Program-made: the position numbers and the translations under genes | Assembly: GCF_018860385.1 (NCBI RefSeq) | Contig: NZ_JAHKPH010000008.1 | Location: forward strand, 62,001 to 126,000 | Reading direction: 5' to 3' | Length of the DNA: 64,000 nt | Source: Reinekea forsetii | GTDB lineage: Bacteria; Pseudomonadota; Gammaproteobacteria; Pseudomonadales; Natronospirillaceae | Shown here: piece by piece, positions 2,524 to 64,000 of the stretch | Numbering within the stretch: the first letter of the stretch is position 1 | How the letters are laid out: each line of letters starts with the position of its first letter | The notes under the pieces: model-generated | Seen by the model: the letters and a program-made list of their open reading frames with translations, nothing else | What the model was told of the DNA's origin: nothing | The model's database searches: none

Positions 2524-3227
2524 ACTCGCTGCTGTCTTTGATTACAGAACCGAGCTGGAAAACCGTGCTCGAAGAAAAACTCAGCCCCGAGGCATTTTCA
2601 AAAATGGAATGTTTTTTAAATGATCGCATAAAGCAAGGTGCTGTAGTTTTCCCGCCACAAGCGCAATGGTTTAGAGCAATCAATGATTTACCCTTAGATC
2701 AAGTGAAGGTCGTGATTGTTGGGCAAGACCCTTATCATGGCGAAGGGCAAGCCCAAGGCCTGAGCTTTTCGGTGCCTTCAAATTGTAAAGTGCCGCCCAG
2801 TTTAAGAAATATGTTTAAGGAAATAGCATCCGATTGTGGCGTACACAATCAAACGGGTAATCTTGAGCGTTGGGTTGCACAGGGCGTGTTATTGATAAAC
2901 GCGTCGTTAACCGTTGAAAAGGGGCTTGCGGGCTCACATCAAGAATGCGGCTGGGAAACAATGACCGATGCAATTATTTCAACCGTCAGCCAAAGGCAAT
3001 CACACTGTGTCTTTTTATTGTGGGGAGGCTTTGCTCACAAAAAGGCTCAGCTAATCGATGAATCTCGACATTTAATCCTCCAAGCCCCACATCCTTCGCC
3101 TTTGTCGGCCTATCGAGGCTGGTTTGGCTGCCAACACTTTAGTCGTACTAATGATTACTTAACCCGAAATAATCGCTCGGCTATCGACTGGCGTACCGAT
3201 GAGATGCACCAAGAAGTACTAATCTGA
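2514..3227 (+). CDS. ung: Uracil-DNA glycosylase, family 1
   Basis: Removes uracil from DNA as the first step of base-excision repair. The 237-residue protein has the family-1 catalytic water-activating motif GQDPYHG (70-76, Asp72), the uracil-binding region LLINASLTVEKG in place of the more usual LLLNTVLTV, and the C-terminal HPSPLS loop with catalytic His193. Length is close to the E. coli enzyme (229). Its ATG lies inside the last codons of acuI (10-base overlap in another frame), so it depends on that transcript. No clear terminator follows; the 134 bases to the next gene hold a short hairpin (AGCTGA/TCAGCT at about 3297-3308) without an adjacent T tract. Confidence 0.96.
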   Translation: MQVDSLLSLITEPSWKTVLEEKLSPEAFSKMECFLNDRIKQGAVVFPPQAQWFRAINDLPLDQVKVVIVGQDPYHGEGQAQGLSFSVPSNCKVPPSLRNMFKEIASDCGVHNQTGNLERWVAQGVLLINASLTVEKGLAGSHQECGWETMTDAIISTVSQRQSHCVFLLWGGFAHKKAQLIDESRHLILQAPHPSPLSAYRGWFGCQHFSRTNDYLTRNNRSAIDWRTDEMHQEVLI

Positions 3228-3361
3228 GGAAAAGTAGATCATTTTTGCGACCTACCCCATTTAATCGAAGGGAATTTCTCTTTATGATGTCGGCTTAGCT
3301 GAAATCAGCTGTGCTATTTTTATTGCGCTAGAATGGTGCATCACTTTAAAAAGGAGTCGTT

Positions 3362-5473: not shown

Positions 5474-5516
5474 TTCGATTGTTTTGAGCCGCTAACAATT
5501 AGCAGCCAAACTAAAT

Positions 5517-5548
5517 AGGGAGGGACATTCGTGTCACCTCCCTTTTTT
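5517..5548 (+). terminator. Intrinsic terminator of the orphan exported-protein gene
   Basis: An 11-bp stem (AGGGAGG at 5517-5523 with CCTCCCT at 5537-5543, extended by GACA/TGTC with one bulged A) capped by a TTCG tetraloop, then a run of six T. It insulates the molybdenum operon from the gene before it. Confidence 0.9.
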
Positions 5549-5613
5549 ATGATCTAGGCTTAATTAACAGAAACATCGGCAAAACAGACTTTGTTGATTT
5601 AAAAACATGCATT

Positions 5614-5629
5614 TACCTCTAAAGAGGTA
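5614..5629. repeat. Inverted repeat upstream of the moaA leader
   Basis: TACCTCT (5614-5620) and AGAGGTA (5623-5629) form a perfect 7-bp inverted repeat with a 2-base centre. It lies about 30 bases upstream of a good -10 element (TATACT, 5657-5662), so it may be an operator for the molybdenum operon. It does not look like a ModE site. Function is inferred from position only. Confidence 0.4.
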
Positions 5630-5670
5630 TTAAAGTTAGGGTTAATAGGAGTATTCTATACTGATCAACA

Positions 5671-5778
5671 CCGAGCTATATCACTCTAAGTCCGTTTGAT
5701 ATGAGTCTATAGCCTCGCACTGAGTGCGACAGGGTAATCTGTAGAAATACGGTTGCCTCCCGACAATTGGAAAGGTGA
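5671..5778 (+). ncRNA. Probable molybdenum-cofactor (Moco) riboswitch leader
   Basis: The 110 bases before moaA fold into several short stems: GCTATA/TATAGC (5675-5680 with 5708-5713) around an inner hairpin, CGCAC/GTGCG (5716-5720 with 5724-5728, TGA loop), and ACAG/CTGT (5729-5732 with 5739-5742). They are followed by GGTTGCCTCCC (5751-5761) and GGAAAGG just before the start codon. The order GCCTCGCAC, GTGCG, CAGGG, GGTTGCCTCCC, AAAGG and the position directly before moaA match my memory of the Moco RNA motif of gammaproteobacteria. In that class, ligand binding to the nascent mRNA lowers expression of cofactor-synthesis genes. A covariance-model search was not possible here. Confidence 0.75.
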
Positions 5779-5781
5779 ATA

Positions 5782-6750
5782 ATGTTACAAGATTCCTTTG
5801 GGCGTAGGTTTTATTACTTGCGCTTGTCTATTACCGATGTTTGCAACTTTAGATGCACTTATTGCCTGCCAGAAGGTTATAAAGGCTTACCTGAAGATGC
5901 TTTTCTCAGCGCGCCTGAAATCTCAAAAACAGTTCAAGCCTTCGCAAAATTGGGTACTGAAAAAGTACGCATTACTGGTGGTGAGCCTAGCTTAAGAAAA
6001 GATCTCCCCGACATCATCAGTTCAATTAAGGCAACTTCGGGTATAAAAAAAGTAGCGTTAACGACGAATGGCTATAAATTAGATAAGAATATTCACGATT
6101 GGCATCGAAGCGGTTTAGATCAGTTAAACGTTTCTATTGATTCTTTCGATAAGGAAACATTTAAATCGGTAACAGGTCATGATCGGATAGATGAGATTAT
6201 GGCCGGTATCGAATCTGCCATTTCTTTTGGCATCAAAGTAAAAGTGAATGCCGTATTAATGAAAGGCATGAATGATAACCTGTCTCCTATATTTGCATGG
6301 CTAAAATCAAACCCGGCGACTTTTCGATTTATAGAAGTGATGGAGACGGCCGACCAAGACGTTTTCTTTCGCCAGTACCATCGTAGTGGTGGAGCCATAA
6401 AACAACAACTCCTCGATGACAATTGGCAATCGGTTATTCAAGATCAAGCCGCAGGACCAGCACAAGAATTTTGGCATCCAGATTATAAAGGGCGCATGGG
6501 CTTAATCATGCCTTACAGTAAAGACTTTTGTGCTACTTGTAACCGCCTAAGAGTTTCTAGTTTAGGGAAAATGCATCTGTGTTTATTTGCCGAGCAGGGC
6601 GTAGATTTGCGACCTTTTTTAGCGCCTAATATACCTATTGAGACGCTAATCGACGCTATACAAGGCCATGTCTCCGATAAAAAATTAGGCCACGATTTGT
6701 TGAATCATAACAGTGGCGCGATGCAAAATTTAAGTCAAATTGGCGGTTAA
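5782..6750 (+). CDS. moaA: GTP 3',8-cyclase (radical SAM)
   Basis: Performs the first step of molybdenum-cofactor synthesis, rearranging GTP to 3',8-cyclo-GTP with a radical generated from SAM. The 322-residue protein has the N-terminal [4Fe-4S] motif CNFRCTYC (Cys 21, 25, 28), the SAM-binding GGEP at 66-69, the second cluster ligands Cys250, Cys253 and Cys267, and the C-terminal GG that inserts into the active site. It is the first gene of a nine-gene molybdenum operon and sits directly behind the Moco-type leader, which overlaps its ribosome site. The following mobA begins one base after its stop codon. Confidence 0.98.
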   Translation: MLQDSFGRRFYYLRLSITDVCNFRCTYCLPEGYKGLPEDAFLSAPEISKTVQAFAKLGTEKVRITGGEPSLRKDLPDIISSIKATSGIKKVALTTNGYKLDKNIHDWHRSGLDQLNVSIDSFDKETFKSVTGHDRIDEIMAGIESAISFGIKVKVNAVLMKGMNDNLSPIFAWLKSNPATFRFIEVMETADQDVFFRQYHRSGGAIKQQLLDDNWQSVIQDQAAGPAQEFWHPDYKGRMGLIMPYSKDFCATCNRLRVSSLGKMHLCLFAEQGVDLRPFLAPNIPIETLIDAIQGHVSDKKLGHDLLNHNSGAMQNLSQIGG

Positions 6751-6751
6751 C

Positions 6752-7282
6752 ATGACGCGCGCTGTATTGGTGTTATCCGGTGGGCAAAGCCGACGAATGA
6801 AACAAGATAAAAGCCAATTAATTTATAAAGGACAAACGCTGCTCAATTGGCAAGAAGATCGCTTTAAAGAGGCTGGTTATCCAGTAATAAGCCAACTAAA
6901 AGACAGGTATTCTGGCTATTTAGGTCCTTTAGCAGGCATCGATGCGGCGCTTAACCAACATCAGGCAGTACGTCATTGGGTTGTGATGCCAGTGGATATG
7001 CCAAAGTTACCCATTGAGCTCGTGGCTCAGCTGTTTCATGAAGGTCAAAGGCGAAACGTGCCAGTAGCATTTGATCATGCGCCGTTGCCATTGTATCTGC
7101 AAAATACGGCCAAAGTACGCGATACTTTAACCGAATGGTTACAAAGCAAAAATGGTAAGCGATCGGTATACGCTTTGATTGAAGAGCTTGGCGGTCATTG
7201 GATGCAGGCAACCCATGCAAAGCAAGAACTGAACAATATAAATACCCCGGAAGAATGGCAAAAAGCCATTGCCGATGAATAG
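6752..7282 (+). CDS. mobA: Molybdenum cofactor guanylyltransferase
   Basis: Attaches GMP to Mo-molybdopterin to give the bis-MGD cofactor used by DMSO-reductase family enzymes such as nitrate reductase and formate dehydrogenase. The 176-residue protein has the nucleotidyltransferase start LVLSGGQSRRMKQDKS (a variant of LAGGxxxRMGxxDK), GPLAGIDAAL and the PVDMP metal-binding segment. The ATG at 6752, one base after the moaA stop, is preferred over an in-frame TTG at 6740 inside moaA because it gives the normal family N-terminus. Presence of MobA implies the cell makes molybdenum enzymes of the bis-MGD class. Confidence 0.93.
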   Translation: MTRAVLVLSGGQSRRMKQDKSQLIYKGQTLLNWQEDRFKEAGYPVISQLKDRYSGYLGPLAGIDAALNQHQAVRHWVVMPVDMPKLPIELVAQLFHEGQRRNVPVAFDHAPLPLYLQNTAKVRDTLTEWLQSKNGKRSVYALIEELGGHWMQATHAKQELNNINTPEEWQKAIADE

Positions 7283-7302
7283 ACTGTAAAAAGGAACGCC
7301 AC

Positions 7303-7845
7303 ATGAGTCATGCTGCAAAAGCATTTGAACCATTAAACATTGCCGTTTTAACCGTTTCGGACACACGCGATGAATCGAGTGATACATCAGGAGCATTGCT
7401 AGTTGAGCGCGCGCAAAAAGCTGGACATAAAGTCATAGAACGGCGAATTGAAAAAGATGATGTTTATCAGATTCGCTACCAGGTTTCTAAATGGATCGCT
7501 TCGAGTGATGCTCAGGTCGTGTTGATTACAGGTGGAACTGGGTTTACTGGTCGAGACTCAACGCCAGAGGCTGTAAAGGTTTTACTCGAAAAGCAAGTAG
7601 ATGGTTTTGGCGAACTTTTTCGTCAGCTATCTTATGAAGACATCGGTACCTCTACGGTGCAATCTAGAGCACTAGCGGGTATTACGAATGGCACTTTAGT
7701 TGTTTGCATGCCCGGTTCAACAGGCGCTTGCCGTACGGCTTGGGATGGTATTTTAGAAACTCAATTAGACGCGCGCGCTAAACCGTGTAATTTTGTTATG
7801 CATTTAAAAGACACCAATACCGAATTGTGTGAGACAAGAGCATGA
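7303..7845 (+). CDS. moaB: Molybdopterin adenylyltransferase MoaB
   Basis: MoaB/Mog-family protein of 180 residues that adenylylates molybdopterin before metal insertion. It shows the family core: [18 protein letters not shown] at about 13-30, [18 protein letters not shown] for the pterin site, and [17 protein letters not shown] near the C-terminus. A strong AAGGA ribosome site precedes the ATG. The next gene, moaC, begins with an ATGA overlap. Whether this MoaB is active or stands in for MogA cannot be decided from sequence alone; no mogA or moeA is present in this window. Confidence 0.95.
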
Positions 7846-32603: not shown

Positions 32604-33164
32604 CTATTGTAACAAGCTCCACTCCCGAATGACGAGCTTTCCGCTGCGATCTTCTCTAGAAAAACTGAGTTTTGTGGGCATAAATGGTGGACTATCTTGG
32701 TATCGAGAGTACTGAACCGTCCAGCCGGCCTGTGTTAACTCGTTTATAAAGCCGCTTGTTTCATTTAGTTGCTGTTTAAATGGTTCATTCGGTTTAGGTA
32801 AAGCCCTAACCCAATACCTTAAATAGTCCAGCGGTAGAGAGATTTGTTGTAGGTCCCACAATAGGTCTTCCAAATTGTTGGCTGTCCATTGGTCTTTGCC
32901 TTGCACCAATGTGGCAGACGCTTGGTCGCCATATACATTTATGCGGCCTTGACCGAGAGGACCGCTCAGTTCGATATCAAATGCACTGGCTTCCTGGCGC
33001 CAGATAACGTTAAAGCTGCTGGCCTCGACACTATTTTTAACCGCCATTTTGCCTTTGAACGCCCAATCGATATTTTCATCGTGGGATAGGTTGGAAAAGC
33101 TAGCACAGCCAACCAACACTAAACTCAATGTCATTGCAGCAAAGCGAGTAACTAGGTTATTCAT
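32604..33164 (-). CDS. lolB: Outer-membrane lipoprotein receptor LolB
   Basis: Accepts lipoproteins from periplasmic LolA and inserts them in the outer membrane. The 186-residue precursor has a lipobox ending LVLVGC (Cys20) and then a LolB domain with DWAFKGKMAVKN, SFNVIWRQEASAFDIELSGPLG and the mid-region DYLRYWVRALPKP. Its ATG overlaps the stop of the TPR lipoprotein gene by 8 bases, a frequent partner in gammaproteobacteria. With the separate LolA/LolCDE-like set at 56.7 kb it shows that this genome contains a canonical Lol route as well as the paralogous one. Confidence 0.94.
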   Translation of the reverse strand: MNNLVTRFAAMTLSLVLVGCASFSNLSHDENIDWAFKGKMAVKNSVEASSFNVIWRQEASAFDIELSGPLGQGRINVYGDQASATLVQGKDQWTANNLEDLLWDLQQISLPLDYLRYWVRALPKPNEPFKQQLNETSGFINELTQAGWTVQYSRYQDSPPFMPTKLSFSREDRSGKLVIREWSLLQ

Positions 33165-51928: not shown

Positions 51929-53461
51929 TTATTGGTATTTTTTTGTATATCTGTAATGCCGCAGCAGTAAAATGACCAATATAATAGTTGCAATAATGGG
52001 CAGTGTAGCGCTTGGGTAACGTTGAAACGGCGTTAGCCCAGATCGCAGCGTTAACTCACCTATTAACTGTGCTTCTGTAAATTGCTCTGAAACTTTTAGA
52101 AGCTTACCCTGGGCATTCATTAGCGCAGAAAGACCATTTTGAGTGGCACGTGCCATATCTCGGCCATTTTCAATTGAGCGCATTCGAGTTATTTGTAGAT
52201 GTTGATGAGGTGCAATGGAATCTCCAAACCATGCATCATTACTAACGGTTGTGAGTAATTGTGATTCTTTGGCTAATTTACGAACAATATCTGGATAAGC
52301 GGCTTCATAACAAATTACCGGTGCAAGAAAAATTGGCTCGCCTTTTAAGCTAGTGACCAGGGGTGTTTGCGGTTTTAGCGCGGGTGACATACCCGAAATT
52401 GAAATGTTGAAAAAGCCGATTAGATTACGCAGGTGTGGATCAAAAGGAACATACTCTCCAAATGGTACTAAGTGTTGTTTACGGTACTCTTCACCTTGTG
52501 CCATACCATAGCCCTGAACGGCATTAAAATAGCGAGGTCCTTCTTTCGTAACCACGCCTGTTAATAACGTCTGGTCTCTTTGACTCATAATAGATTGTAC
52601 TTGTGCCATGAAATTAGGGATTTGATCGGCACGCCGAGTCATAGCGGCTTCTGGCCACAACATAATATCGACATCGGGTAAGGTTTCTATTTGCTCGCCA
52701 TAAAACTGTAAAGTTGCTAGTTGTTGAGATGATTTCCATTTGTCTTGTTGAGCAATGTTACTTTGAATTGCGGCGACTTTGACTGTTGATTGCGCTTGCG
52801 TCCAATAATCTGCGGGCAACCACAATCCTGCAATGTTTAACAACAACAGTACAAGCAAAGATCCGGCAAAGGGCCGAACCGCCGATTTGAACCCTGTTTG
52901 CTGCCAACGTAAAACAGCCAATAGCAGCAGTGCACTTATAAAGGCTAGAATTAAAGAAAGTCCGTACACCCCTATTATTGCAGCAAGTTGTGCCATGGGT
53001 AGATCGATGACAGCATAACCTGTAAATAACCAGGGCATGCCCGTCAAAAACCATTCGCGGAGCCATTCAAAAAATAGCCAGCTCAATGGGCTAGCCAGTA
53101 ATAAGCTCAGCTTCAGCTTTTGGAGAAAGCGAACATGAAACCACAGCTGTATGGCTGTTAAAAACGCGAGCGCTCCGCAAAATGCGGCCGTGAGTAAGAA
53201 TGAAAGAGCGACAGGGGTGTCTACCGTGCGCATACTGCCATAGACCCAAGATACCCCGAGTCCAAAAAAGCCAATGCCAACTACCCAGCCTAGCCAAAAG
53301 GCGGCTTTAGGTTGATCAATGACTGATTGCAGCCAGAAAAACCCAGCGATACCGACCAACGCCAGTGGCCAAATATTGAAAGGGGCTAAAGACAAAGGGA
53401 TGCAAAGACCAATAGCAAAGGCAACGACTATTTTTACGGCGAGCGGTTTTGAGGTGAACAT
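51929..53461 (-). CDS. lnt: Apolipoprotein N-acyltransferase
   Basis: Adds the third acyl chain to bacterial lipoproteins in the inner membrane. The 510-residue protein has about six N-terminal helices (to about residue 215) and then a nitrilase-like periplasmic domain. The catalytic triad can be placed as Glu271 (LWPEAAMTRR), Lys328 (YRKQHLVPFGEY) and Cys384 (PVICYEAAYPDI). Length matches E. coli (512). The ATG at 53461 is the likely start; an in-frame TTG seven codons upstream has no ribosome site. The frequent neighbour corC/ybeX is not seen here. Confidence 0.96.
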   Translation of the reverse strand: MFTSKPLAVKIVVAFAIGLCIPLSLAPFNIWPLALVGIAGFFWLQSVIDQPKAAFWLGWVVGIGFFGLGVSWVYGSMRTVDTPVALSFLLTAAFCGALAFLTAIQLWFHVRFLQKLKLSLLLASPLSWLFFEWLREWFLTGMPWLFTGYAVIDLPMAQLAAIIGVYGLSLILAFISALLLLAVLRWQQTGFKSAVRPFAGSLLVLLLLNIAGLWLPADYWTQAQSTVKVAAIQSNIAQQDKWKSSQQLATLQFYGEQIETLPDVDIMLWPEAAMTRRADQIPNFMAQVQSIMSQRDQTLLTGVVTKEGPRYFNAVQGYGMAQGEEYRKQHLVPFGEYVPFDPHLRNLIGFFNISISGMSPALKPQTPLVTSLKGEPIFLAPVICYEAAYPDIVRKLAKESQLLTTVSNDAWFGDSIAPHQHLQITRMRSIENGRDMARATQNGLSALMNAQGKLLKVSEQFTEAQLIGELTLRSGLTPFQRYPSATLPIIATIILVILLLRHYRYTKKYQ

Positions 53462-53590
53462 ATAAATAAGGAGATCCTTCAAGAAGTCTGCTGCACTTTA
53501 ACCTGTCGCACATAGGTCGACAAGCATTGGCCTTATTGACTAACTGTGGCAAGCGCATCAGACTAAGTAAAAACCATTGAGTGAAACAGC

Positions 53591-53997: not shown

Positions 53998-55284
53998 ATG
54001 ACTTTCAAAACAATAACAAAAATAGTACCTGTTCAAAGTCTAAAATCATTACTTCAACCTCATCCAAAAGAGGACACCTTAGTTGATGGTTTGCGTGGAC
54101 TGTCAGCGATAATGATCGTGATTTTTCACGCCATGTTCGCTGTATACTTTCTGTTTAAAAATCGTCCGGAACTTTTTCAACTCTATATAGAACGGTTTGA
54201 TTTACCGTTACGATTCCTTTTTGGCTTCGATAAAGCGGTTGATATTTTCTTCATGATCAGCGCTTATTTACTGGGCAGGCAATTAATTGGGCAAGCCCGG
54301 AATAAGGGCGTACAAGCTCGACGCTTTTACCTAAATCGCCTTTTTCGAATTTACCCGTTATTTGTAATCGCGCTTATCTTATATAGTCTAGGCAGTTGGC
54401 ACCTATTTGAGCGCGATTTTTGGTTTAATTTAATCTTTATCGATAACTTTATGCACAATACGATCATTCCTGTCGGATGGTCACTTTCGGTAGAGATGCA
54501 ATGCTATTTAGCGTTGCCTCTCGTTATTGTTTTGTCTGAAAAATCTAAATACCCGGTTTGCTTTATAGCAATTTTGTTGTTGCTCTCTGTCGGCTTACGA
54601 GGGTGGGTGGCGCTCACGCATCCGGAAGTCTATCAAGTACCTTTTCATTCGATTTTTATGAATCCAAGCATCGATTATCAATATATGAATCAGATGTATT
54701 ACGCAACCCCTAGCCGGTTAAGTAGTTTTATTGTTGGCTTGCTGTGGGCTGCAATTGTGATGCATGAGAAGTTTCAACATTATTATAAGCGCATTTCTCA
54801 AAATAACTGGTTCGCAAGACCGCTCTTTCTATTGTGTGCCATTGTGATGTTCGTTAGTTTATTTTTTCCAATTTACGATGCAAAGTTTTGGCAGCATTGG
54901 CCTGTTCTCGAATCGTTAAATCTGTATTTAGTTGTTTTCCACCGTGTTGCATTTGCAATGGCGCTGATGGTTATTATTTTATTGGTTAGAAAGCCCACAA
55001 GCCTATTCGTGCGATTTCTATCTTGGCGCGTGCTGCGCGTTTATTCCAAGTTAGCCTTCCCGGTGTATCTGTTTCATTTCCCAGCGCTGGCGGTTTCGTG
55101 GCTGCTGGTATTGCAAACGACTAACTTAAAGTCGATAGAGGTAGTTTCACCGCTGCAAACCGCTGCGGCAGCGCTTATAGCCTTAATTTTAGTGGCCTGG
55201 GTCGCGCTGCCATTACACTTTTTAATTGAACAAAAAGGAATACGATTCGGGCAGCGACTGAACCAAAAGCTGTCCACTCAATAG
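53998..55284 (+). CDS. Acyltransferase 3 family membrane protein (OafA/YrhL type)
   Basis: A 428-residue inner-membrane protein with about ten helices. The family signature near the N-terminus is VDGLRGLSAIMIVIFHAMF, with the catalytic His, followed by AVDIFFMISAYLLGRQL and FYLNRLFRIYPLFVIALILY (FRIYP motif). Members O-acetylate or otherwise acylate cell-surface sugars (O-antigen, exopolysaccharide, peptidoglycan). No glycosyltransferase cluster lies nearby, so the target is not apparent. Its stop is immediately next to that of the convergent thiolase gene. Confidence 0.9.
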   Translation: MTFKTITKIVPVQSLKSLLQPHPKEDTLVDGLRGLSAIMIVIFHAMFAVYFLFKNRPELFQLYIERFDLPLRFLFGFDKAVDIFFMISAYLLGRQLIGQARNKGVQARRFYLNRLFRIYPLFVIALILYSLGSWHLFERDFWFNLIFIDNFMHNTIIPVGWSLSVEMQCYLALPLVIVLSEKSKYPVCFIAILLLLSVGLRGWVALTHPEVYQVPFHSIFMNPSIDYQYMNQMYYATPSRLSSFIVGLLWAAIVMHEKFQHYYKRISQNNWFARPLFLLCAIVMFVSLFFPIYDAKFWQHWPVLESLNLYLVVFHRVAFAMALMVIILLVRKPTSLFVRFLSWRVLRVYSKLAFPVYLFHFPALAVSWLLVLQTTNLKSIEVVSPLQTAAAALIALILVAWVALPLHFLIEQKGIRFGQRLNQKLSTQ

Positions 55285-56466
55285 TCACGACCGCTTCTGT
55301 TTTTGGTAAAGGGTCACCACGGCTGCACCACCTAACCCTAGGTTATGTTGCAAGCCAATCTTTGCATCTTTAACTTGGCGAGCGCCTGCGTTGCCACGTA
55401 GCTGTTGAGTGAGCTCAAAACATTGAGCCAACCCAGTAGCGCCCACGGGGTGGCCTTTTGACATAAGCCCGCCGGATGGATTCACGACAGTTTGGCCACC
55501 ATAGGTATTGTCTTTGTTTTCTACAAACTCGGTAGCGCCGCCGGCAGGGCAAAGCCTCAAGCCTTCATAACTAATCACTTCGTTAGGGACAAAACAATCG
55601 TGTAATTCGACAACATCTATATCCAGTGGGTTTACGCCAGTTTGCTGATAAACTTGGTCTGCCGCTCTTTGGGTCATGTCTGCGCCGACTAGATTTCTGG
55701 CATTATCCCAAGAGGTTGGCGTATCAGTCGTCATCGCCTGCCCAGTAATGGCGACACTGGCGTCTATACCGTGTTTTTTAGCAAAAGCCTCACTGCAAAT
55801 AACGGTCGCTGCAGCACCACAGGTGGGCGGGCAGCACATAAAGCGGGTGAGGTAATTCATGTATACGATTGGAGAATCTAAAACATCAGCTTCAGTTAAA
55901 GGCGTGTTGAGTAAAGCAAATGAATTGTTTAACGCATGGGTTCTGGTTTTTACCGCCACTTTTGCATACAAAGACGGATCTGCATCATAGGTGCTTAGAT
56001 AATCGTGGCCTGCAGCGCCGAAAGCTCTCAGTGCAATAGGCGCTTCGGGGTAGCCCATTTGATCTAGCTTGGTGTGGAAGATGTCAAAGGGTGATTCGCG
56101 GTCTTGCCAGTGTGACCCTAACGCACCTTTCTGCATTTCCTCAAAGCCAAACGCTAAGACACAATCTACAGCACCACTGGCGACGGCTTGTCGTGCTAAG
56201 AATATGGCTGTAGAGCCAGAGGAGCAGTTATTGTTTACGTTGATAAACGGGATTCCGATCATAAAGGCATCGTAAAGTGCGTGCTGACCGCAGGTTGAAT
56301 CGCCATAGATATAGCTGCCATACGCTTGTTGAATCGCCTTTGGTTCAAGCCCCGCATCGGCGAGAGCGCCCTGAATTGCTTGAGCGGCCATTATGCGAAA
56401 GGGCTGTTGTTGGCCAGGTTTGCTAAATTTAATCATGCTAACGCCAGCAACGATAACTTTATTCAT
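55285..56466 (-). CDS. Thiolase family protein (SCP-x/lipid-transfer type)
   Basis: A 393-residue thiolase-fold enzyme. The nucleophile is Cys81 in NVNNNCSSGSTAIFLAR, and the second catalytic block GLMSKGHPVGATGLAQCFEL is near the C-terminus. The sequence NNNCSSG and the VELHDCFVPNEVISYE block place it with sterol-carrier-type thiolases that act in fatty acid, steroid or lipid side-chain breakdown. The ATG at 56466 is preferred to a TTG four codons earlier. The intergenic region upstream contains a perfect FNR/Anr palindrome. Confidence 0.9.
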   Translation of the reverse strand: MNKVIVAGVSMIKFSKPGQQQPFRIMAAQAIQGALADAGLEPKAIQQAYGSYIYGDSTCGQHALYDAFMIGIPFINVNNNCSSGSTAIFLARQAVASGAVDCVLAFGFEEMQKGALGSHWQDRESPFDIFHTKLDQMGYPEAPIALRAFGAAGHDYLSTYDADPSLYAKVAVKTRTHALNNSFALLNTPLTEADVLDSPIVYMNYLTRFMCCPPTCGAAATVICSEAFAKKHGIDASVAITGQAMTTDTPTSWDNARNLVGADMTQRAADQVYQQTGVNPLDIDVVELHDCFVPNEVISYEGLRLCPAGGATEFVENKDNTYGGQTVVNPSGGLMSKGHPVGATGLAQCFELTQQLRGNAGARQVKDAKIGLQHNLGLGGAAVVTLYQKQKRS

Positions 56467-56564
56467 ATGGACACCCAAAAGTTGTATTTAGGCGATTGAG
56501 TTTATCGGCTCTTAGTCACTATGTCATGGTTCCATAGTTGGAGAGTCATGCAACTTATACACAA

Positions 56565-56688: not shown

Positions 56689-57438
56689 ATGCGGAAAACA
56701 TTTCGGTCATTTTTGTTCAATGCGAGCTTATTAATTACAGCCTCCTTTACATGGTCAAACGAAGTGCCTTCGGCGACCGAGTTACTTATTAAAGTCGACA
56801 AACTTTATCATCAAGATAACGCCTACGCTAAATTAACGATGGAGATTCAAACTCCCGATTATCAGCGGACTATGAGTATGGAGTCATGGTCCATTGGGTT
56901 GGATTATTCGCTCATGCGTGTTTTGACGCCCAAAAAAGAACAAGGCGTCGCCACACTGAAGCGTGAAAACGAAATGTGGAACTATTTACCTAAAATTCGT
57001 AAAACCATCAAAGTACCGCCTTCTATGATGATGGGTAGCTGGATGGGCTCAGACTTTACTAATGATGATTTAATGAGAGAAGGTTCTTGGGTTGAAGAGT
57101 TTGAAGTGGATCTAAAGGCCGAGAATGGCCAGTATATTCTTGATCTTGTCTCCAAAGAAAACACCGTCACCGTTTGGGGGGCCATGCAGATTGTCATTGA
57201 TCAAGAGACTTTATTACCGATTAAACAAATATACCTAGATGAAGACGGTTCCGCCGTACGAGAGATGGTTTTTAGTGATATAAAAACTTTTGATGGTGTT
57301 ACCCTACCCTCAGTAATGACACTAACGCCTTTAACCAAAGAAGGGCATTTAACCCGCGTAACTTACGATGAACTTAGCTTTAACGTTGAGATAGACAGTG
57401 ATTTTTTTACTTTGCAAAATTTACAACGACGCCGATAA
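56689..57438 (+). CDS. Outer-membrane lipoprotein-sorting (LolA-like) protein
   Basis: A 249-residue periplasmic protein with a signal peptide (MRKTFRSFLFNASLLITASF, cleavage near WSNE) and a LolA/LolB-type beta fold. The sequence TMEIQTPDYQRTMSMESWSI, MRVLTPKKEQGVATLKREN, MWNYLPKIRKTIKVPPSMMM and GSWMGSDFTNDDLMREGSWV is the pattern of a LolA-like group distinct from canonical LolA. It is the first gene of a five-gene operon with two permeases, an ATPase and a beta-barrel. A shuttle for a hydrophobic cargo across the periplasm is the natural inference. Confidence 0.87.
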   Translation: MRKTFRSFLFNASLLITASFTWSNEVPSATELLIKVDKLYHQDNAYAKLTMEIQTPDYQRTMSMESWSIGLDYSLMRVLTPKKEQGVATLKRENEMWNYLPKIRKTIKVPPSMMMGSWMGSDFTNDDLMREGSWVEEFEVDLKAENGQYILDLVSKENTVTVWGAMQIVIDQETLLPIKQIYLDEDGSAVREMVFSDIKTFDGVTLPSVMTLTPLTKEGHLTRVTYDELSFNVEIDSDFFTLQNLQRRR

Positions 57439-57451
57439 GTAGGGTGATTCA

Positions 57452-58687
57452 ATGTTAATGATTAAACTGGCGTTTCGAAATATTTTAAGGAATAAGCGCC
57501 GTACCATTTTGACGATGCTCAGTATGTTTGGCGGATACACCTTGCTGGTGTTATCGATATCCGTTCAAAGCGGCTCTTACGATCAGGTGATCGACTTTTT
57601 TACTCAAGACTCGACAGGCCATGCCCAGGTTTTTTCACCGGGATACTTAGAGAAACCGACACTCTATAAAACGGTTCCTGAAACAGAAGAATTTTACCAG
57701 CAAATAAAGAGCTTAAACCGTGTGACCCATGCCGTGCCCCGAATTGTGAGTGGCGCAATAGCCTATGGTGAAACAAAAAGCTTTCCGGTACAGGTTATTG
57801 GAGTCGATGCGATCAAAGAGCGTGAAATGTCTTTTTTAGAAGACAAGGTTAAGCAAGGACTTTATTTTACCGATCTGCCTACGCGGGATGGCCTTTTCGA
57901 TGCCATGATCGGTGCCGCCGTTGCGCGTCAATTATCTTTGGCCGTCGGCGATGAGCTTATTCTCATTTCGCAAGCAAGTGACGGGTCTTTAGCGAATGAC
58001 ATATACAATGTGAGAGCCATTATAGGTGACCAAAAAGGAGCCGAAGCTCGGTCTGTATATTTGCCAATTGCAGCAGCGCAGTCATTTTACGTTATGGAAT
58101 CGCAAGCACACTATTGGGCCGTGCTTTCAGACGATGTAGGTTACAGTGATAAACTGGCGGCGGATTTAAATAGCTGGTTGCAGCAAAGTGCCTTTTCAAA
58201 TTTACAGTCGCAAAGTTGGAAGGTAGTAGCAAAAGACTTTTATGCCGCCATGACTGCTGATATAGAAGGTGGTTACATCTCCTACTATATTATTGTGCTA
58301 TTAATTGGCATTGGCGTATTGAATACGGTGCTGATGTCGGTATTGGAACGTACAGGAGAATTCGGGGTTCTAAAAGCCATCGGCACGTCACCAAAGCGTT
58401 TGTTCACGTTGATCGTGCTTGAAACGTTAATGTTGGCCGTATTGAGTTGCATGATTGGGTTTTTAGTGTCCTTGCCCATCAATTATTTTTTAGCCCATGT
58501 AGGCATAAGCTTACCCGATCCAGTGGAGTTCTCCGGTGTAACGATGTCGCATATGCAGGGTTTATGGAACGTATCGGTGTTTGCAGAGCCAGCCTTGATC
58601 ATTATATCCGCTGCGGCGTTAATATCTCTGTTTCCGGCAAGAAGGGCTGCAAGAATAGTCCCTGTCGAGGCTATGAGGAGCTTATGA
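57452..58687 (+). CDS. ABC transporter permease, LolC/LolE/FtsX type (first)
   Basis: A 411-residue permease with the four-helix layout of the LolC/E and MacB group: one helix at about 20-40, a large periplasmic MacB-type domain (about 45-260), then three helices (about 275-300, 322-350, 380-400). Key segments are LAFRNILRNKRRTILTMLSM at the N-terminus and VLERTGEFGVLKAIGTSPKR, the coupling-helix region that contacts the ATPase. It starts 13 bases behind the LolA-like gene and is followed with no gap by a second, related permease. The two most likely form a heterodimer, as LolC and LolE do. Confidence 0.9.
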   Translation: MLMIKLAFRNILRNKRRTILTMLSMFGGYTLLVLSISVQSGSYDQVIDFFTQDSTGHAQVFSPGYLEKPTLYKTVPETEEFYQQIKSLNRVTHAVPRIVSGAIAYGETKSFPVQVIGVDAIKEREMSFLEDKVKQGLYFTDLPTRDGLFDAMIGAAVARQLSLAVGDELILISQASDGSLANDIYNVRAIIGDQKGAEARSVYLPIAAAQSFYVMESQAHYWAVLSDDVGYSDKLAADLNSWLQQSAFSNLQSQSWKVVAKDFYAAMTADIEGGYISYYIIVLLIGIGVLNTVLMSVLERTGEFGVLKAIGTSPKRLFTLIVLETLMLAVLSCMIGFLVSLPINYFLAHVGISLPDPVEFSGVTMSHMQGLWNVSVFAEPALIIISAAALISLFPARRAARIVPVEAMRSL

Positions 58688-59917
58688 ATGAGTATTAACT
58701 GGACGCTCGCCTTACGCAATATTATGCGTAATAAACGCCGCACCTTATTAACGTTGTTATTAATCAGCGCCACGCTCAGTGTGCTTATTTTTACGGATGG
58801 TTTTATGCGAGGAATGACGGATGTCATGATTCGCTCTGCCACTCGACTGTATCCAGGTGACGGTCAAATTCACCACTCAGAGTATCTTGCCGATCGTGAT
58901 GGGGCAAAATTTATTGCCAATATTTCAGAAACCGTTGAGAAAATAAAAAATCAGCCGTTGATAGAAAGCTATACGTTACGGGCAAATGATTTTGGTATGG
59001 TTTCAAGTACCGCCAATAATTTACCGGTTCAAGTTGTGGGGATAGATGCCGAGCTAGAAGCAACGGTTTCTAAACTTAAACTCAGCATGATACGAGGAGA
59101 TTATTTAGACAATAGCGGAGTGAATTCGCAAATCTTGATTGGGGAACCTTTGGCTGAATTGCTTGAGGTGAGCCTGGGTGATCGTTTGGTGGTATCCGTG
59201 AACAACTACCAAACAGAATCGATAGAGCAGCGATTGTTTCGAGTCAGTGGCGTATTTAAGATGAACTCAAAATTTTTTGACGAAGGGCTGGTGTTTATTC
59301 AACTGCCATTGGCGCAAGAAATGATGGGCATTGATAATGGAGTGCATGAGTTAGCGTTCAATTTCTACGATGAATCACAATCCAGTAACACTGAACTTGA
59401 GCTTTGGAGTGATTTATCTTCAAGTTCTATAAAAGCTCAAGGCTGGGTGCAATTGATGCCCGACCTTGCCGCAATAATAGGCATGATGGATTACAGTATG
59501 TTTGTTATTGGCAGTATTTTGTTCATGGTTGCAATTTTAGGTGTCGTAAACGCCATGTTCATGTCTATTTATGAGCGTACCTACGAGTTTGGCGTTATTT
59601 TGGCTATTGGTACTCGTCGCAGCCAGGTATTTCGCTTGATTTTAATTGAAGGCTTGATGCTCAGTCTTGTTTCAATTGTTGTCGGCTCGCTACTGGGTGC
59701 GATCTTAAACTTCACTGTTGGGCACATCGGAATTGACTACAGTTCAATGGATATATCTGGAGTGGCTTTGGCCGAAGTTATCAGAACCGATTTAAATTGG
59801 AACCAGTTTACGGTATTACCGCTGTCGGTATTGGCCATGGTGATCATTGCAAGCCTTTACCCAGCGATACACGCGGCCAGAATTGTTCCTGCGAAAGCAT
59901 TGCATAAAAGTTTATAG
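58688..59917 (+). CDS. ABC transporter permease, LolC/LolE/FtsX type (second)
   Basis: A 409-residue permease with the same four-helix plan as the gene before it. The N-terminus reads [20 protein letters not shown], and the coupling segment is [20 protein letters not shown]. Its closest relative in the window is its neighbour, so the pair arose by duplication. Its ATG directly follows the TGA of the first permease, so the two are co-translated. The periplasmic domain (about 45-260) has lower similarity to the partner and would determine cargo. Confidence 0.9.
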
Positions 59918-59928
59918 GAAAGATTACT

Positions 59929-60615
59929 ATGAAAGCAGTAATAGAAACCCGTGGGTTAAGCCGACATTATGGTGAGGGCGACACCTTAGTGAAAGCCTTA
60001 GATTCTGTTGATGTCACTATTGAAGCTGGAGAGTTTACGGCCATTGTTGGTCCTTCGGGTTCTGGCAAGTCTACTTTGTTACAGCTCATGGGTGGTTTAG
60101 ATAATCCAAGTGAGGGTGAGGTATTGCTTGCCCAAAATAATATTTCCAGTATGGCCAGTCAGGCGTTGTCGGATTTTAGGCGTGATCACATTGGTTTTAT
60201 ATTTCAGGCTTACAATTTGATTCCCGTTTTGAATGCTGCAGAAAACTGCGAATACATTATGTTGTTGCAAGGCGTTCCTGAGGCTGAACGAAAAGAGCGT
60301 GTATACAATATTTTAAAACGTGTTGGCTTAGATGGAAAAGAAAAACGCCTGCCAAGTGAACTTTCTGGTGGTCAACAGCAACGAGTTGCAGTGGCTCGTG
60401 CGATGGCCAGTAACCCTGACATCATATTGGCCGATGAGCCAACGGCGAATTTAGATTCAAAAACGGGCACTGAATTATTAGATATGATGCATGAGCTTAA
60501 CAAAAGTGAGGGCATGACCTTTGTATTTTCCACTCATGATCCAAAGATAATGGAGCGCGCGAGTCGGCTTGTCCACATAGAAGATGGCAGGATAATAAAC
60601 GATGAACGCCGTTAA
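59929..60615 (+). CDS. ABC transporter ATPase, LolD-like
   Basis: A 228-residue ATP-binding subunit of the MacB/LolD family. It has the A-loop Tyr (SRHYGEG), Walker [11 protein letters not shown]-loop [18 protein letters not shown], signature [16 protein letters not shown], Walker [13 protein letters not shown] and the H-loop STHDP. It has a standard length and the full catalytic set. It starts 11 bases behind the second permease (AGGAAAG ribosome site) and its 3' end overlaps the outer-membrane protein gene by 14 bases. It would drive the two permeases. Confidence 0.94.
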
Positions 60616-61759
60616 TTGTTGTTTGTGTTTTGGTATAGTCGCGGCCTGTTCAAATGCAGTAATGGCCGCTGATTTTGATTCAAATGTCGATGTGAATCTA
60701 GCCGCGTCTGTTTTTCAATTGCCAGATACCGACGAGTGGCAACCTTTCTCAACTGTTTCTACCAAATTGAACGCTTGGCTTTACCCCAGTGAGAATACTG
60801 AAATTTCTATTCGCTACGGACTTACAGCCAATGGTGCCGAGTCTGAAAGTTTTCTACAGCAAATGACGCTCAGCAGCGACAGCCGAGCTGACTACTTAAT
60901 CGGTGACAACCGTTCAGTACTGTGGCAAAACAGCCGCCAAACATTGTCATTATCGCACCAGCTCGAACAATTGCTAGCAACATTTTGGTTTGAAGATGTC
61001 AGTGTTAACGTCGGTCGGCAGGCCATCAGCTTGGGCACCTCAAAAGTATTTTCTCCCGCCGATGTGATAGCGCCTTCTAGTTTTGATTTTAGCTTTTCAG
61101 GGTATCGTATGGGGGTCGATGCAGTTCGCCTGACTTGGTACGTTGGCCCGACCAGCGAGCTTGATGCCGGTCTTATTCAAGGTCAAGACAGCGCAGTTTT
61201 TGCGCGATTTAAAACCAATGCCCATGCATTCGATGTGGATGTCACCGCTATACAATTAGATGAGAGTTTGGGTTTACTTTCCATCGGGTTCATTGGAGGC
61301 GTGGGAACAATTGGTTTGTGGCAAGAAAGTGCGCTTTACAGTGAAGGGGGTGATTGGTCTGTCAGAAGCTCCCTCGGCGCAGATACGACTTTATTCGATG
61401 ATTTGTATGTAATGGCAGAGTATCACTTTAATGGGCTTGGAATGCCTTCGGGTGAATATTACCAGCGCTTCGAGTCTCAATATTACCGCCAAGGGTCGAT
61501 ACAACCTGCAGGTCGCCATTATCTTTCGATGATAGCCACTAAACCGATAAACGCATTGCTGACGGGTCAAGTAAACTGGGTGACTAATATGGAAGATTTA
61601 TCGGGTGTGGCACTTTTAGGTGGTACCTTAAGTGTTAGTGATAACGCTACCGCCGCGCTCAACGCATCGATTCCCTACAGCAACAGCAGTGATGCCAATA
61701 CATTTGAATATGGTGCTTTTCCATTAGGAATAAACGCCAGCCTGAATTGGGTGTTTTAA
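60602..61759 (+). CDS. Predicted outer-membrane beta-barrel protein
   Basis: A 385-residue exported protein, signal peptide [20 protein letters not shown] with cleavage near MAA. The mature part alternates polar and hydrophobic residues in strand-sized blocks. It ends in NASLNWVF, with the terminal Phe used by BAM for barrel insertion. [20 protein letters not shown] (about 139-158) resembles the conserved plug or strand region of porin-like DUF1302-type barrels found with LolA-like/ABC clusters. Its start overlaps the ATPase gene by 14 bases, linking it firmly to the operon. It is the likely outer-membrane terminus of the pathway. Confidence 0.83.
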
Positions 61760-62112
61760 ATATCGGTGTAGGCTTTACGCACTTTATCGTAAGCTGTTTT
61801 TGTTTCCGTCGGGGAAAACCCTTCAGGCACTTCATTGCGCGCAAAAAAAGCGAAAGCTAACACACTGGCAACCCATTCAAAGAGCTCTGGTGGTATAGCC
61901 TGGCCTACATCGAGTTGGGCCAATACATTCACAAGGTCTTCATCTTCATAAACCGGTATGCGGTGTTCTTTTGCGAGTTTTATGATCGCTTCGGCTTGTT
62001 CATTGTGACCAAATGCGGAAACAATAGGCGTTTGCCGGCCTTTGTACTTTAAAGTCGCCGCCTGCGTGTTGGTTTGCTCCGGCTGTTCATCCGTACGGCT
62101 GTGATCGCTCAT
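61756..62112 (-). CDS. Stand-alone FlhB C-terminal-domain protein
   Basis: A 118-residue soluble protein similar to the cytoplasmic domain of FlhB/YscU export-switch proteins. It spans LKYKGRQTPIVSAFGHNEQA, AKEHRIPVYEDEDLVNVLAQ and DVGQAIPPELFEWVASVLAF, the region that follows the NPTH autocleavage site in FlhB; the membrane part and NPTH itself are absent. Similar proteins are encoded next to fliK in many gammaproteobacteria. It probably tunes substrate switching in flagellar export, perhaps by substituting for the cleaved FlhB fragment. Its ATG overlaps the fliK stop (ATGA), so the pair is co-translated. Confidence 0.88.
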   Translation of the reverse strand: MSDHSRTDEQPEQTNTQAATLKYKGRQTPIVSAFGHNEQAEAIIKLAKEHRIPVYEDEDLVNVLAQLDVGQAIPPELFEWVASVLAFAFFARNEVPEGFSPTETKTAYDKVRKAYTDI

Positions 62113-64000
62113 GTTTTAATATCCACTAAGTGGTGATTGGTTTGCTGCAATTGTTGTTTGCTGACTTTTTTTGGCATTCCGTGCCGAGTTTGTATCACAC
62201 TTTCATCACTGAGCCCTTGAGTCCAACTGGTTAAAGTGGGTATGAGTTGATTGAGGTGCGATAACGTTGCGGCATCTTCTGACCAAAAAACAAGCTGGGT
62301 GTCATTGCTATGCCAATCAATATCGGCACAAAATTCTGAAAGCGGGTCTACGTTAAGGTAGATTCGCATGCGCCAGCGGCGATCTCTTTCTTCTTTTTCT
62401 TGGCTGGCTTGATTCTTCTTTTTCTCTTGCCACCATTCTATATCGGCCCAGGATGTTAATCCCAACCATATGAGAGGCAGTTGAAGCTGTTGTACTGGCG
62501 GCAATTCGGGTAACTGCCATTGTGTTGCTGCAGACTGAACCGCCTGATGAAAAACCTTTGCCTGAGCCGATTCTAACCAACTTCTTAACTGGCTTAATGG
62601 ATCGTCTTTAGTTGCCTGTGACTGGAGCAGTTTTGGATCAATTTGAATTTTTTCTGCGGCACTTTGACCTTCGTTAATTAGAGCCATCGCTTTAGATTTT
62701 AATAGCTGGGAGAGGTCGGCTTGAGTTTTAGTTTGTGTTTGCTCAATCAGCCCAATCCATTGGCTTAATTTAACCTCTATTAAATCAGTAACTGGCTTTG
62801 GTAAGATCGATTGAGAAGGTTTTAGCGGGTGAGATTGCGTTGAAAACAAGTCACTCGAGATCTGTTTAAAGACTGTAAAAGCTGAGCTCCGTACATTAGT
62901 TTGTTGGGTTGGGCTTGGTAGGCTTGCCGTTAAGGCTTGAGCGCTATTACCTAAAACCTCATTAGCTCCCTTGGGTGTACCTGGAGCTTGCGTGGCTTGC
63001 TGCGTAAATGTTGGCGCGCTGGTTATGTTAGGCGATAGCACTAATTGAGCTATATTTGTGGGCAGGGCTTTCGCGTTAAGACCAATCATCGGCGTGAGTT
63101 GTTTGGCTCGAAATACCGCCGATTGTATTGATTCGTTGCGATTCAATAACGGGGTTTCTTTTGAATTTGTAAGTGTAGGCTTAGTGTTTTTTACGGCTGT
63201 ATCGGCATGCGCTCCAAAAGTTATTTTTCCTATCAGCGTCAATATTGGGTGTTTTACCGGAGGTTGTTGTATTTGCTCTGGCGCTAAACGGGTTGTGGGT
63301 TGCGCAGTAAAAGCAGTGGACGTTGTTAACGGCTGCAGTGGCGCATTGCTATGAGCGCCTGTCGTGACGGGTTGTGTCGGTTGCGCTGGCTGAAATAAAT
63401 TCGACCCTAATGAGCTGTTAGGTATTTTAGCTGTACTGTTATGAGGGGCAGTGCCGCTATGACCTGAAGTACTTGAGGTTGCTAAGTTAAACGCTTTACT
63501 TGAAGGCGCTGTAGTATTTTCTCTAAGTACGCTCAAAGGGCTGAATTCTTGCAGCCATTTTTGAATTTGCTGGCCCGTCAGCTGGCTGGGTCTTTGAGTG
63601 AGCCATTGAACCAGTGGTTTGAGTTCAGGGTAGTTTTTTGCCAATACTTCTAATGCTTGAGCACTGGGGAGTGTAGGCGAAGTTTTTACCGCAGCTTTCG
63701 GGTAGAGGTGTGCCTGCCAAAACTCTAACTCCAATGTGACCAGCTTTGTGATTTGCGCTTGGGTTAAACGGTCGGCCGGCTGGTATTGGCCATTCTCATC
63801 GAGCTCAACAAGCAGTGGGGTACCTAGCTTTATATTTGAATCGGCGACCACTTTAATTGGCGGTTCACTCTTAGGGTCGTTTTGTAGAATGAGCTGAAAC
63901 AGCCCGCCTTTTTGCCCTTCGATAATGGGTATCGATTGCAACACGATGGTCGCTAAAGGGTTGGGTGGCGGACGATTGGATGAATTAACCGTTCGTTCAG
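62109..64000 (-). CDS. fliK: Flagellar hook-length control protein FliK (N-terminus outside window)
   Basis: A secreted molecular ruler that sets flagellar hook length and triggers the export-substrate switch. The readable part is at least 629 residues: a long low-complexity, Gln/Pro/Thr/Ser-rich ruler region (about 150-400 from the window edge) and a C-terminal globular FliK_C-type domain with WRMRIYLNVDPLSEFCADID and DAATLSHLNQLIPTLTSW. A GTG at 63944 could be a start, but the frame stays open to the window edge without a stop (TVNSSNRPPPNPLATIVLQS) and no good ribosome site precedes the GTG, so the gene probably starts beyond it. It is co-translated with the FlhB-like gene. Confidence 0.87.
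   Translation of the reverse strand, partial: ERTVNSSNRPPPNPLATIVLQSIPIIEGQKGGLFQLILQNDPKSEPPIKVVADSNIKLGTPLLVELDENGQYQPADRLTQAQITKLVTLELEFWQAHLYPKAAVKTSPTLPSAQALEVLAKNYPELKPLVQWLTQRPSQLTGQQIQKWLQEFSPLSVLRENTTAPSSKAFNLATSSTSGHSGTAPHNSTAKIPNSSLGSNLFQPAQPTQPVTTGAHSNAPLQPLTTSTAFTAQPTTRLAPEQIQQPPVKHPILTLIGKITFGAHADTAVKNTKPTLTNSKETPLLNRNESIQSAVFRAKQLTPMIGLNAKALPTNIAQLVLSPNITSAPTFTQQATQAPGTPKGANEVLGNSAQALTASLPSPTQQTNVRSSAFTVFKQISSDLFSTQSHPLKPSQSILPKPVTDLIEVKLSQWIGLIEQTQTKTQADLSQLLKSKAMALINEGQSAAEKIQIDPKLLQSQATKDDPLSQLRSWLESAQAKVFHQAVQSAATQWQLPELPPVQQLQLPLIWLGLTSWADIEWWQEKKKNQASQEKEERDRRWRMRIYLNVDPLSEFCADIDWHSNDTQLVFWSEDAATLSHLNQLIPTLTSWTQGLSDESVIQTRHGMPKKVSKQQLQQTNHHLVDIKT

Follow-up and report, generated by a model that had tools for sequence, protein, structure and literature searches.

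A conserved five-gene cassette of Reinekea forsetii that may couple a LolA-fold carrier and an outer-membrane barrel to a type VII ABC motor

Introduction

How lipids and other hydrophobic compounds are carried to the outer membrane is not yet fully worked out. Here we analyse a cassette of five adjacent genes of Reinekea forsetii, located at positions 56,689 to 61,759 of a 64,000-nucleotide stretch of DNA (the window; contig NZ_JAHKPH010000008.1 of assembly GCF_018860385.1, positions 62,001 to 126,000) from a genome of 3.42 Mb in 21 contigs that is 98.5% complete, and compare it with the closest systems described to date, namely the Lol machinery and clusters in which a resistance-nodulation-division (RND) pump is accompanied by a LolA-superfamily protein and a DUF1302-type barrel.

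Among clusters of the latter kind, deletion of AmeABCD in Castellaniella lowers monoterpene tolerance (PMC6394551), the DUF1302/DUF1329 pair PP_0765/0766 of Pseudomonas putida was reported to be essential for growth on Tween 20 and its fitness correlates with that of the RND-type pair PP_2018/2019 (PMC10866462), and TOL_3187/3188 of Thalassolituus are induced by the n-C28 alkane (PMC6304351). Reports on relatives of LolA describe a solved LolA3 protein in which both the LolA arginine and the LolB leucine are missing and whose binding to LolB was only weak (PMC13103446), a Flavobacterium johnsoniae protein, likewise named LolA3, whose deletion gave no phenotype, and a flexirubin pigment operon of Flavobacterium that contains LolA2 and LolB2 (PMC11885536). 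The nearest described cluster with an ATP-binding cassette (ABC) motor among the literature found is BBJ23-29 of Borrelia, a seven-gene cluster with an Omp85 barrel which its authors report only in Borrelia (PMC13078400). No description of the ABC five-gene form was found in the open-licence full-text literature, judged mostly by title and the start of the abstract; subscription papers may hold one. Our analysis makes it rather probable that the R. forsetii cassette exports its cargo through a module of carrier and barrel, with a type VII ABC motor in the place that an RND pump takes elsewhere.

Results

The five open reading frames (ORFs) all lie on the plus strand in the unbroken order carrier, permease, permease, ATPase, barrel, separated by 13, 0 and 11 bases at the first three junctions and overlapping by 14 bases at the fourth (ATPase, 59929–60615; barrel, 60602–61759), and on each of these points the ORF list agrees with the original prediction, which had been made from the letters of the window alone. 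The first gene (56689–57438) encodes a predicted periplasmic carrier of 249 aa with the LolA fold (PF17131 LolA_like, E 7e-46). The second and third (57452–58687, 411 aa; 58688–59917, 409 aa) encode inner-membrane permeases, here called A and B, with the MacB_PCD and FtsX domains of type VII ABC transporters (A: MacB_PCD 6e-15, FtsX 8e-14; B: FtsX 1.5e-15, MacB_PCD 9e-10). The fourth product is an ABC ATPase of LolD/MacB type (228 aa; ABC_tran 1.1e-36; best NCBIfam match LolD) and the fifth an outer-membrane β-barrel of 385 aa, for which a structure model and profile comparison predict 18 strands and a distant relation to DUF1302. Neither a MacA-type adaptor nor a TolC-type duct is present among the five proteins.

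The barrel was matched at E ≤ 0.001 in 29 of 244 genomes of the same order, its own genome included, and was undetected in the other 215 at the sensitivity used. A barrel unrelated to the transporter in relatives is not what these genomes displayed, since an ATPase or permease gene lies directly upstream of it in 26 of the 29 (again including the window's own). When GTDB species genomes were searched with an alignment of barrels, 72 named loci emerged, whose gene content was read with home-made hidden Markov models (HMMs); the alignment of 27 barrels being too diverse for this search, 11 closer sequences were used, which biases the loci towards barrels with two conserved motifs and makes the phylum counts lower bounds. 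Found from the barrel alone, 53 of the 72 loci carry the complete carrier-permease-permease-ATPase-barrel set in unbroken order (Pseudomonadota 29, Thermodesulfobacteriota 8, Myxococcota 7, Bdellovibrionota 4, Cloacimonadota 2, and three without a phylum label, one of them SAR324). The complete set thus occurs in at least five phyla and is not confined to marine gammaproteobacteria, the group for which the original prediction had named similar clusters. Among the other 19 loci, 14 are truncated, with sequence that begins within the cassette at or close to a contig end, one (L069) has the two permeases fused in a single ORF of 820 aa and one (L109) has permease A split into two ORFs. Loci that are cut, split or incomplete extend the range to Hydrogenedentota, Acidobacteriota, Aminicenantes and Poribacteria, and to Kiritimatiellota with a barrel only; many loci are metagenome bins, and single-phylum assignments may be wrong. 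Because the same set recurs in distant taxa, the cassette is more than a chance arrangement. Judged by both permeases, Reinekea blandensis is the closest named relative (71% and 66%). In 54 systems (the 53 complete loci and the window), the pairwise distances of the five proteins correlate at 0.77 to 0.96, values which none of 999 permutations reached for any pair, showing inheritance as a unit with function and kinship not separated.

Within the order, 68 of 115 genomes contain PF17131 carriers (125 rows), from which 60 contexts were taken (odd-numbered rows, with the partial rows 117, 123 and 125 left out). ABC permeases adjoin 12 of these carriers and an RND pump adjoins 36, four of which are fused to the pump; the remaining 12 have neither within reach. 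A barrel was matched at E ≤ 0.01 in 44 contexts. An HMM of the cassette carrier gave 200–348 bits for nine of the 60 and 18–79 bits for the other 51; all nine high-scoring carriers adjoin at least one permease gene, and the barrel is present in all eight contexts not cut by a contig end. One variant (L180) has fused permeases (one ORF, 834 aa) and the order carrier-ATPase-permease-barrel; from this locus and L183, which is considered below, the set is seen to be largely kept despite changed order or permease number. Two further loci (L203, L204) have another ABC order, ATPase-permease-permease-carrier-barrel, in which the first permease is longer and the carrier a distant one; they are possibly an independent ABC recruitment.

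The carrier N-terminus reads by inspection as a signal peptide without a lipobox, and the lipobox pattern was found in none of the 53 related carriers, whose starts were chosen by a hydrophobicity heuristic; the N-termini of the related carriers listed look like Sec signals, except in L056, where the upstream part is masked. An AlphaFold2 (AF2) model built from an alignment of the window carrier with 38 of the 53 (predicted local distance difference test, pLDDT, 91.1; predicted template modelling score, pTM, 0.84) had as its best PDB matches LolA3 of Porphyromonas gingivalis (9tp6; Z 26.0, 2.3 Å over 219 residues) and 4z48 (Z 26.0, 2.1 Å over 217). The model also matches 3bk5 and 3buu (the top four having Z 24.8–26.0), followed by LolB and LolA proteins at Z ≤ 14.2, and the LolA-LolC structure 6f3z is among its matches. 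The original prediction of a LolA-like carrier therefore holds for the fold but not for the family: PF03548 (LolA) is not among the carrier's Pfam matches at E ≤ 0.1, and the protein belongs to PF17131. Conservation in the alignment is highest at WNYLP...VPPSMMMGSWMGSDFTNDDL, and WMGS[DH] is present in all 54 carriers.

The barrel protein has no Pfam or NCBIfam match at E ≤ 0.1, and a comparison of its sequence with solved structures gave matches at chance level. AF2 on a 27-row alignment (drawn from 26 of 29 related loci, including L028 and L029, whose barrels are without ABC neighbours) produced a porin-type barrel (pLDDT 86.2, pTM 0.82), in which 18 strands were counted by hand from the DSSP list, leaving out a short strand at 104–109. 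A conserved loop after strand 5 (about residues 138–174; GRQ...P.D...P...YR.GVDA) is placed where we take porins to have the inward-folded loop 3. Foldseek matched the model to porins in general, with AlgE first (E 1e-11, TM 0.59, 9% identity) and other porins close behind; this is a match of fold only and does not establish kinship with AlgE, and no alginate-export family is among the Pfam matches of the 27 barrel family members at E ≤ 0.5. DUF1302 was matched by nine of the 27 at E ≤ 0.5 (best 3.5e-5), the window protein not being among them.

The same genome contains a second PF17131 cluster, on contig C12 (253009–257640 of genome G000; 3010–7641, minus strand, of locus L205), with an HAE3/HpnN-like RND pump, a LolA-like carrier and a barrel. 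PF17131 is thus the carrier family of both the window cassette and the C12 cluster. For the barrels the relation is visible to profiles only: the window and C12 barrels do not match each other directly (best E 0.80), whereas hhalign of the cassette barrels against barrels of RND clusters (17 of 34 matches of the C12-barrel HMM, those with at least 45 bits) gave 99.3%, E 8.7e-21 over 252 columns. OprD proteins have 18 strands, and an OprD control (9 of 10 matches, less diverse than the barrel sets) gave 0.2% and 0.7%. DUF1302 is matched at E ≤ 0.01 by 13 of the 17 RND-cluster barrels, the C12 barrel not among them, and 14 of the 34 RND-type barrel matches also match the cassette-barrel HMM at E ≤ 0.01. 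In place of the RND pump, the cassette has an ABC ATPase and FtsX permeases. Given the shared PF17131 and the barrel profile match, against different pumps, the carrier and the barrel are each related between the ABC cassette and the RND clusters and the motor is not. In four loci (L173, L175, L181, L185), RND pumps of 1050–1100 aa have a LolA-like domain in the same frame and are followed by a barrel gene.

The permeases had been called LolC/E-like, and lolCE is indeed their nearest NCBIfam model, but both score far below its cut-off (TIGR02212, 362 bits; A 108.5, B 133.5) and form a separate group. A tree of 50 cassette permeases (24 of the 53 complete systems chosen at random, plus the window) and four references sets LolC, LolE, LolF and a MacB-like row apart from the cassette permeases (support 97); the A rows form one clade (Shimodaira-Hasegawa-like approximate likelihood ratio test, SH-aLRT, 94) that includes permease A of the window, the B rows, with which permease B of the window is grouped, need two label changes, and the internal order of A and B is similar. 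The tree is a quick one, with a long branch to the MacB-like outgroup and 17 of 51 inner branches weak; since A and B are largely separate and similar in order, it points to an old duplication before the cassette spread. The region which we take to be the LolC hook, the hairpin that recruits LolA, falls short of that of Escherichia coli LolC by 4–5 residues, in the two window permeases as well as in 10 aligned pairs from related systems; by this measure the cassette permeases lack the hook expected of a Lol member. At this position the motif DGS[ILMV][AG] occurs in 47 of 54 A permeases and in none of 54 B permeases. The fused permeases of L069 and L180 suggest that A and B form a heterodimer. 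Across the ATPase family (n = 54), Walker A and LSGGQ are each found in 53 members and Walker B in all 54; the window ATPase scores 230.6 bits against the LolD model (cut-off 307.75), and the canonical LolD of the genome is also below the cut-off, at 295 bits.

A separate standard Lol system had been thought likely, and its members were found. The sole lolCE match above cut-off in the genome (475 bits; C1, 145406–146632) is of LolF type and is followed by a LolD gene, the one PF03548 LolA match is at C17:109540, away from the cassette, and a canonical lolB lies in the window outside the cassette (32604–33164, minus strand; TIGR00548, 82.1 bits, cut-off 59.6). The cassette is accordingly not the only LolCDE-type set of the genome. 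As LolF-type permease, LolD, PF03548 LolA and lolB are all present, the canonical Lol route looks complete with a single LolF-type permease gene, and the five-gene set is additional to it.

Clustering of 769 flanking ORFs gave no common partner of the cassette. Wax esters are not supported as the cargo: a search of this genome for WS/DGAT gave no match at E ≤ 1e-10, and across the order the enzyme is not associated with the barrel. Just upstream of the window cassette (53998–56478) are an acyltransferase gene (PF01757) and a divergent thiolase-like gene (PF22691). Downstream (61756–63944, minus strand), and convergent with the barrel gene, is a gene for a stand-alone FlhB C-terminal-like protein of 118 aa, together with one for a protein with a weak FliK match below cut-off.

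Discussion

The original proposal that the five genes act as one trans-envelope route is supported by their conserved linkage. In the mechanism we favour, the permeases and the ATPase would form the type VII ABC motor and hand the cargo to the soluble LolA-fold carrier, which would cross the periplasm and dock under the DUF1302-related 18-strand barrel; the cargo would then reach the surface of the outer membrane through or beside the barrel. The DGS[ILMV][AG] loop of permease A is a candidate docking point for the carrier, and this loop and the conserved stretch SWMGSDFTNDDL are candidate contacts for docking of the carrier with permease A or with the barrel. An outward direction is presumed, and to our knowledge the known type VII ABC motors (LolCDE, MacB) are exporters. 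Carrier and barrel would constitute a module, and the pairing of that module with an RND (HAE3/MmpL) pump in other clusters, including the one on C12 of this genome, makes the motor in the inner membrane look exchangeable. Since the papers on systems of the RND kind report links to monoterpenes, Tween 20 and the n-C28 alkane, an apolar or amphiphilic small cargo is favoured over a lipoprotein, and by this analogy the cargo is probably a lipid-like amphiphile. A broader proposal, that the cassette belongs to a widespread class of exporters that use ATP to move lipids anterogradely to the outer membrane, by way of a soluble shuttle and a dedicated barrel, and in which an ancient LolA-fold/DUF1302-type module is joined to a type VII ABC motor as the counterpart of the RND-driven forms, is offered tentatively, at slightly less than even chances.

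Several observations weigh against this interpretation. The C12 barrel matches neither DUF1302 nor the cassette-barrel HMM; three genomes of the order, all of one genus (G016, G091, G145), have a barrel match without adjoining ABC genes; and three uncut named loci lack the full set, L077 having only the barrel, L104 only carrier and barrel, and L093, in a record with 400 N, only a weak ATPase match. No barrel was matched in 16 of the 60 carrier contexts, and the uncut cassette L183 has a carrier, one permease gene, an ATPase and a barrel, so that its motor is possibly homodimeric and the heterodimer is not universal. The correlation of distances also reflects species kinship. No cargo gene was found to travel with the cassette among the 82 upstream and 77 downstream neighbours scanned, the largest neighbour families being TetR (seven upstream) and short-chain dehydrogenase (six downstream), and a wax-ester synthase is found in 12 of the 29 barrel-positive genomes and 82 of the 215 others, which is no association. 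Finally, the Tween 20 phenotype might reflect uptake instead of export.

Among the alternatives, a second dedicated lipoprotein route fares best and is still unlikely. Here the permeases would extract a subset of triacylated lipoproteins, the carrier would shuttle them, and the barrel would insert or surface-expose them, as would suit the LolA fold of the carrier and the lolCE and LolD models nearest to the permeases and the ATPase. The gene for apolipoprotein N-acyltransferase, lnt (window 51929–53482), is moreover close to the cassette, as it is in four Saccharospirillaceae loci (L042–L045; 49–53% identity), but BLAST of the window lnt against the 769 neighbours confined this linkage to one family, and the proximity is probably family-level synteny. 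Against a lipoprotein cargo are also the 36 of 60 PF17131 carriers that adjoin an RND pump and not a Lol motor, the shortened LolC-hook region, and the missing arginine and leucine and weak LolB binding of LolA3. A selection of neighbours, 82 upstream and 77 downstream (one or two of the closest genes at part of the loci, window included), was tallied by Pfam, and no lipoprotein family is among the 25 commonest families.

Less likely again is an efflux pump with a MacAB-like role, removing toxic hydrophobic compounds rather than exporting a lipid made by the cell. The relatives of the motor include MacB, deletion of AmeABCD affects monoterpene tolerance, and TetR_N was found in 7 of the 82 upstream neighbours scanned, with TetR-family genes directly upstream of and co-directional with the carrier at L069, L110 and other loci. 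However, most loci have no TetR neighbour, the five proteins lack the adaptor and the TolC of such pumps, and a lipid would be better suited than a small drug to a soluble LolA-fold shuttle. The last alternative is an uptake or retrograde system, with a barrel that lets in a hydrophobic nutrient or takes lipids back and a carrier that moves them inward; it would accord with the Tween 20 requirement of the P. putida pair and its link to the RND-type pair, with the n-C28 induction in Thalassolituus and with the thiolase-like gene adjoining the window cassette, but is very improbable given that the type VII ABC transporters we know of are exporters and that no catabolic gene is common beside the cassette among the neighbours scanned.

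If the carrier-barrel module is indeed driven by either motor, the exchange would mirror that of tripartite efflux pumps. A cassette so compact, in which five genes supply motor, carrier and likely exit, is a tractable system, and the module it has in common with RND clusters offers a testable annotation rule for genes labelled ‘outer membrane lipoprotein-sorting protein’ or DUF1302, as well as a caution against reading such genes as parts of Lol.

Comparison with known systems

Judged by sequence, the nearest parallel in carrier and barrel is the cluster of RND pump, LolA-superfamily protein and DUF1302-type barrel, rather than Lol. AmeABCD and the set of PP_0765/0766 with PP_2018/2019 likewise have a LolA-superfamily periplasmic protein, a DUF1302-type barrel and phenotypes with apolar compounds; their motor is of the RND type whereas that of the cassette is ABC, AmeB and PP_0766 are called DUF1329 in their papers whereas the cassette carrier is PF17131, and AmeC has no counterpart in the cassette. 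The Lol system (LolCDE or LolFD, LolA, LolB) also joins a type VII ABC motor to a soluble carrier of the LolA fold, but the cassette differs in carrier family, in its separate permease clades, in the shortened hook region and in having a barrel instead of LolB. LolA3 of P. gingivalis, the solved fold closest to the carrier (tied with 4z48), stands apart from the LolA-LolB pair. MacAB-TolC shares the MacB_PCD and FtsX permease domains, whereas the cassette has a separate ATPase, two permeases, and no adaptor or TolC-type duct. Borrelia BBJ23-29 (PMC13078400) likewise combines a MacB-like permease, an ATPase, a LolA-like protein and an outer-membrane barrel in one cluster, but its barrel is of the Omp85 family, its permease is proposed to be homodimeric, and it includes two chaperone-like proteins and one protein of unknown function. 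The cassette thus resembles the RND clusters in carrier and barrel without being one of them, and it falls outside Lol by the sequence measures applied here.

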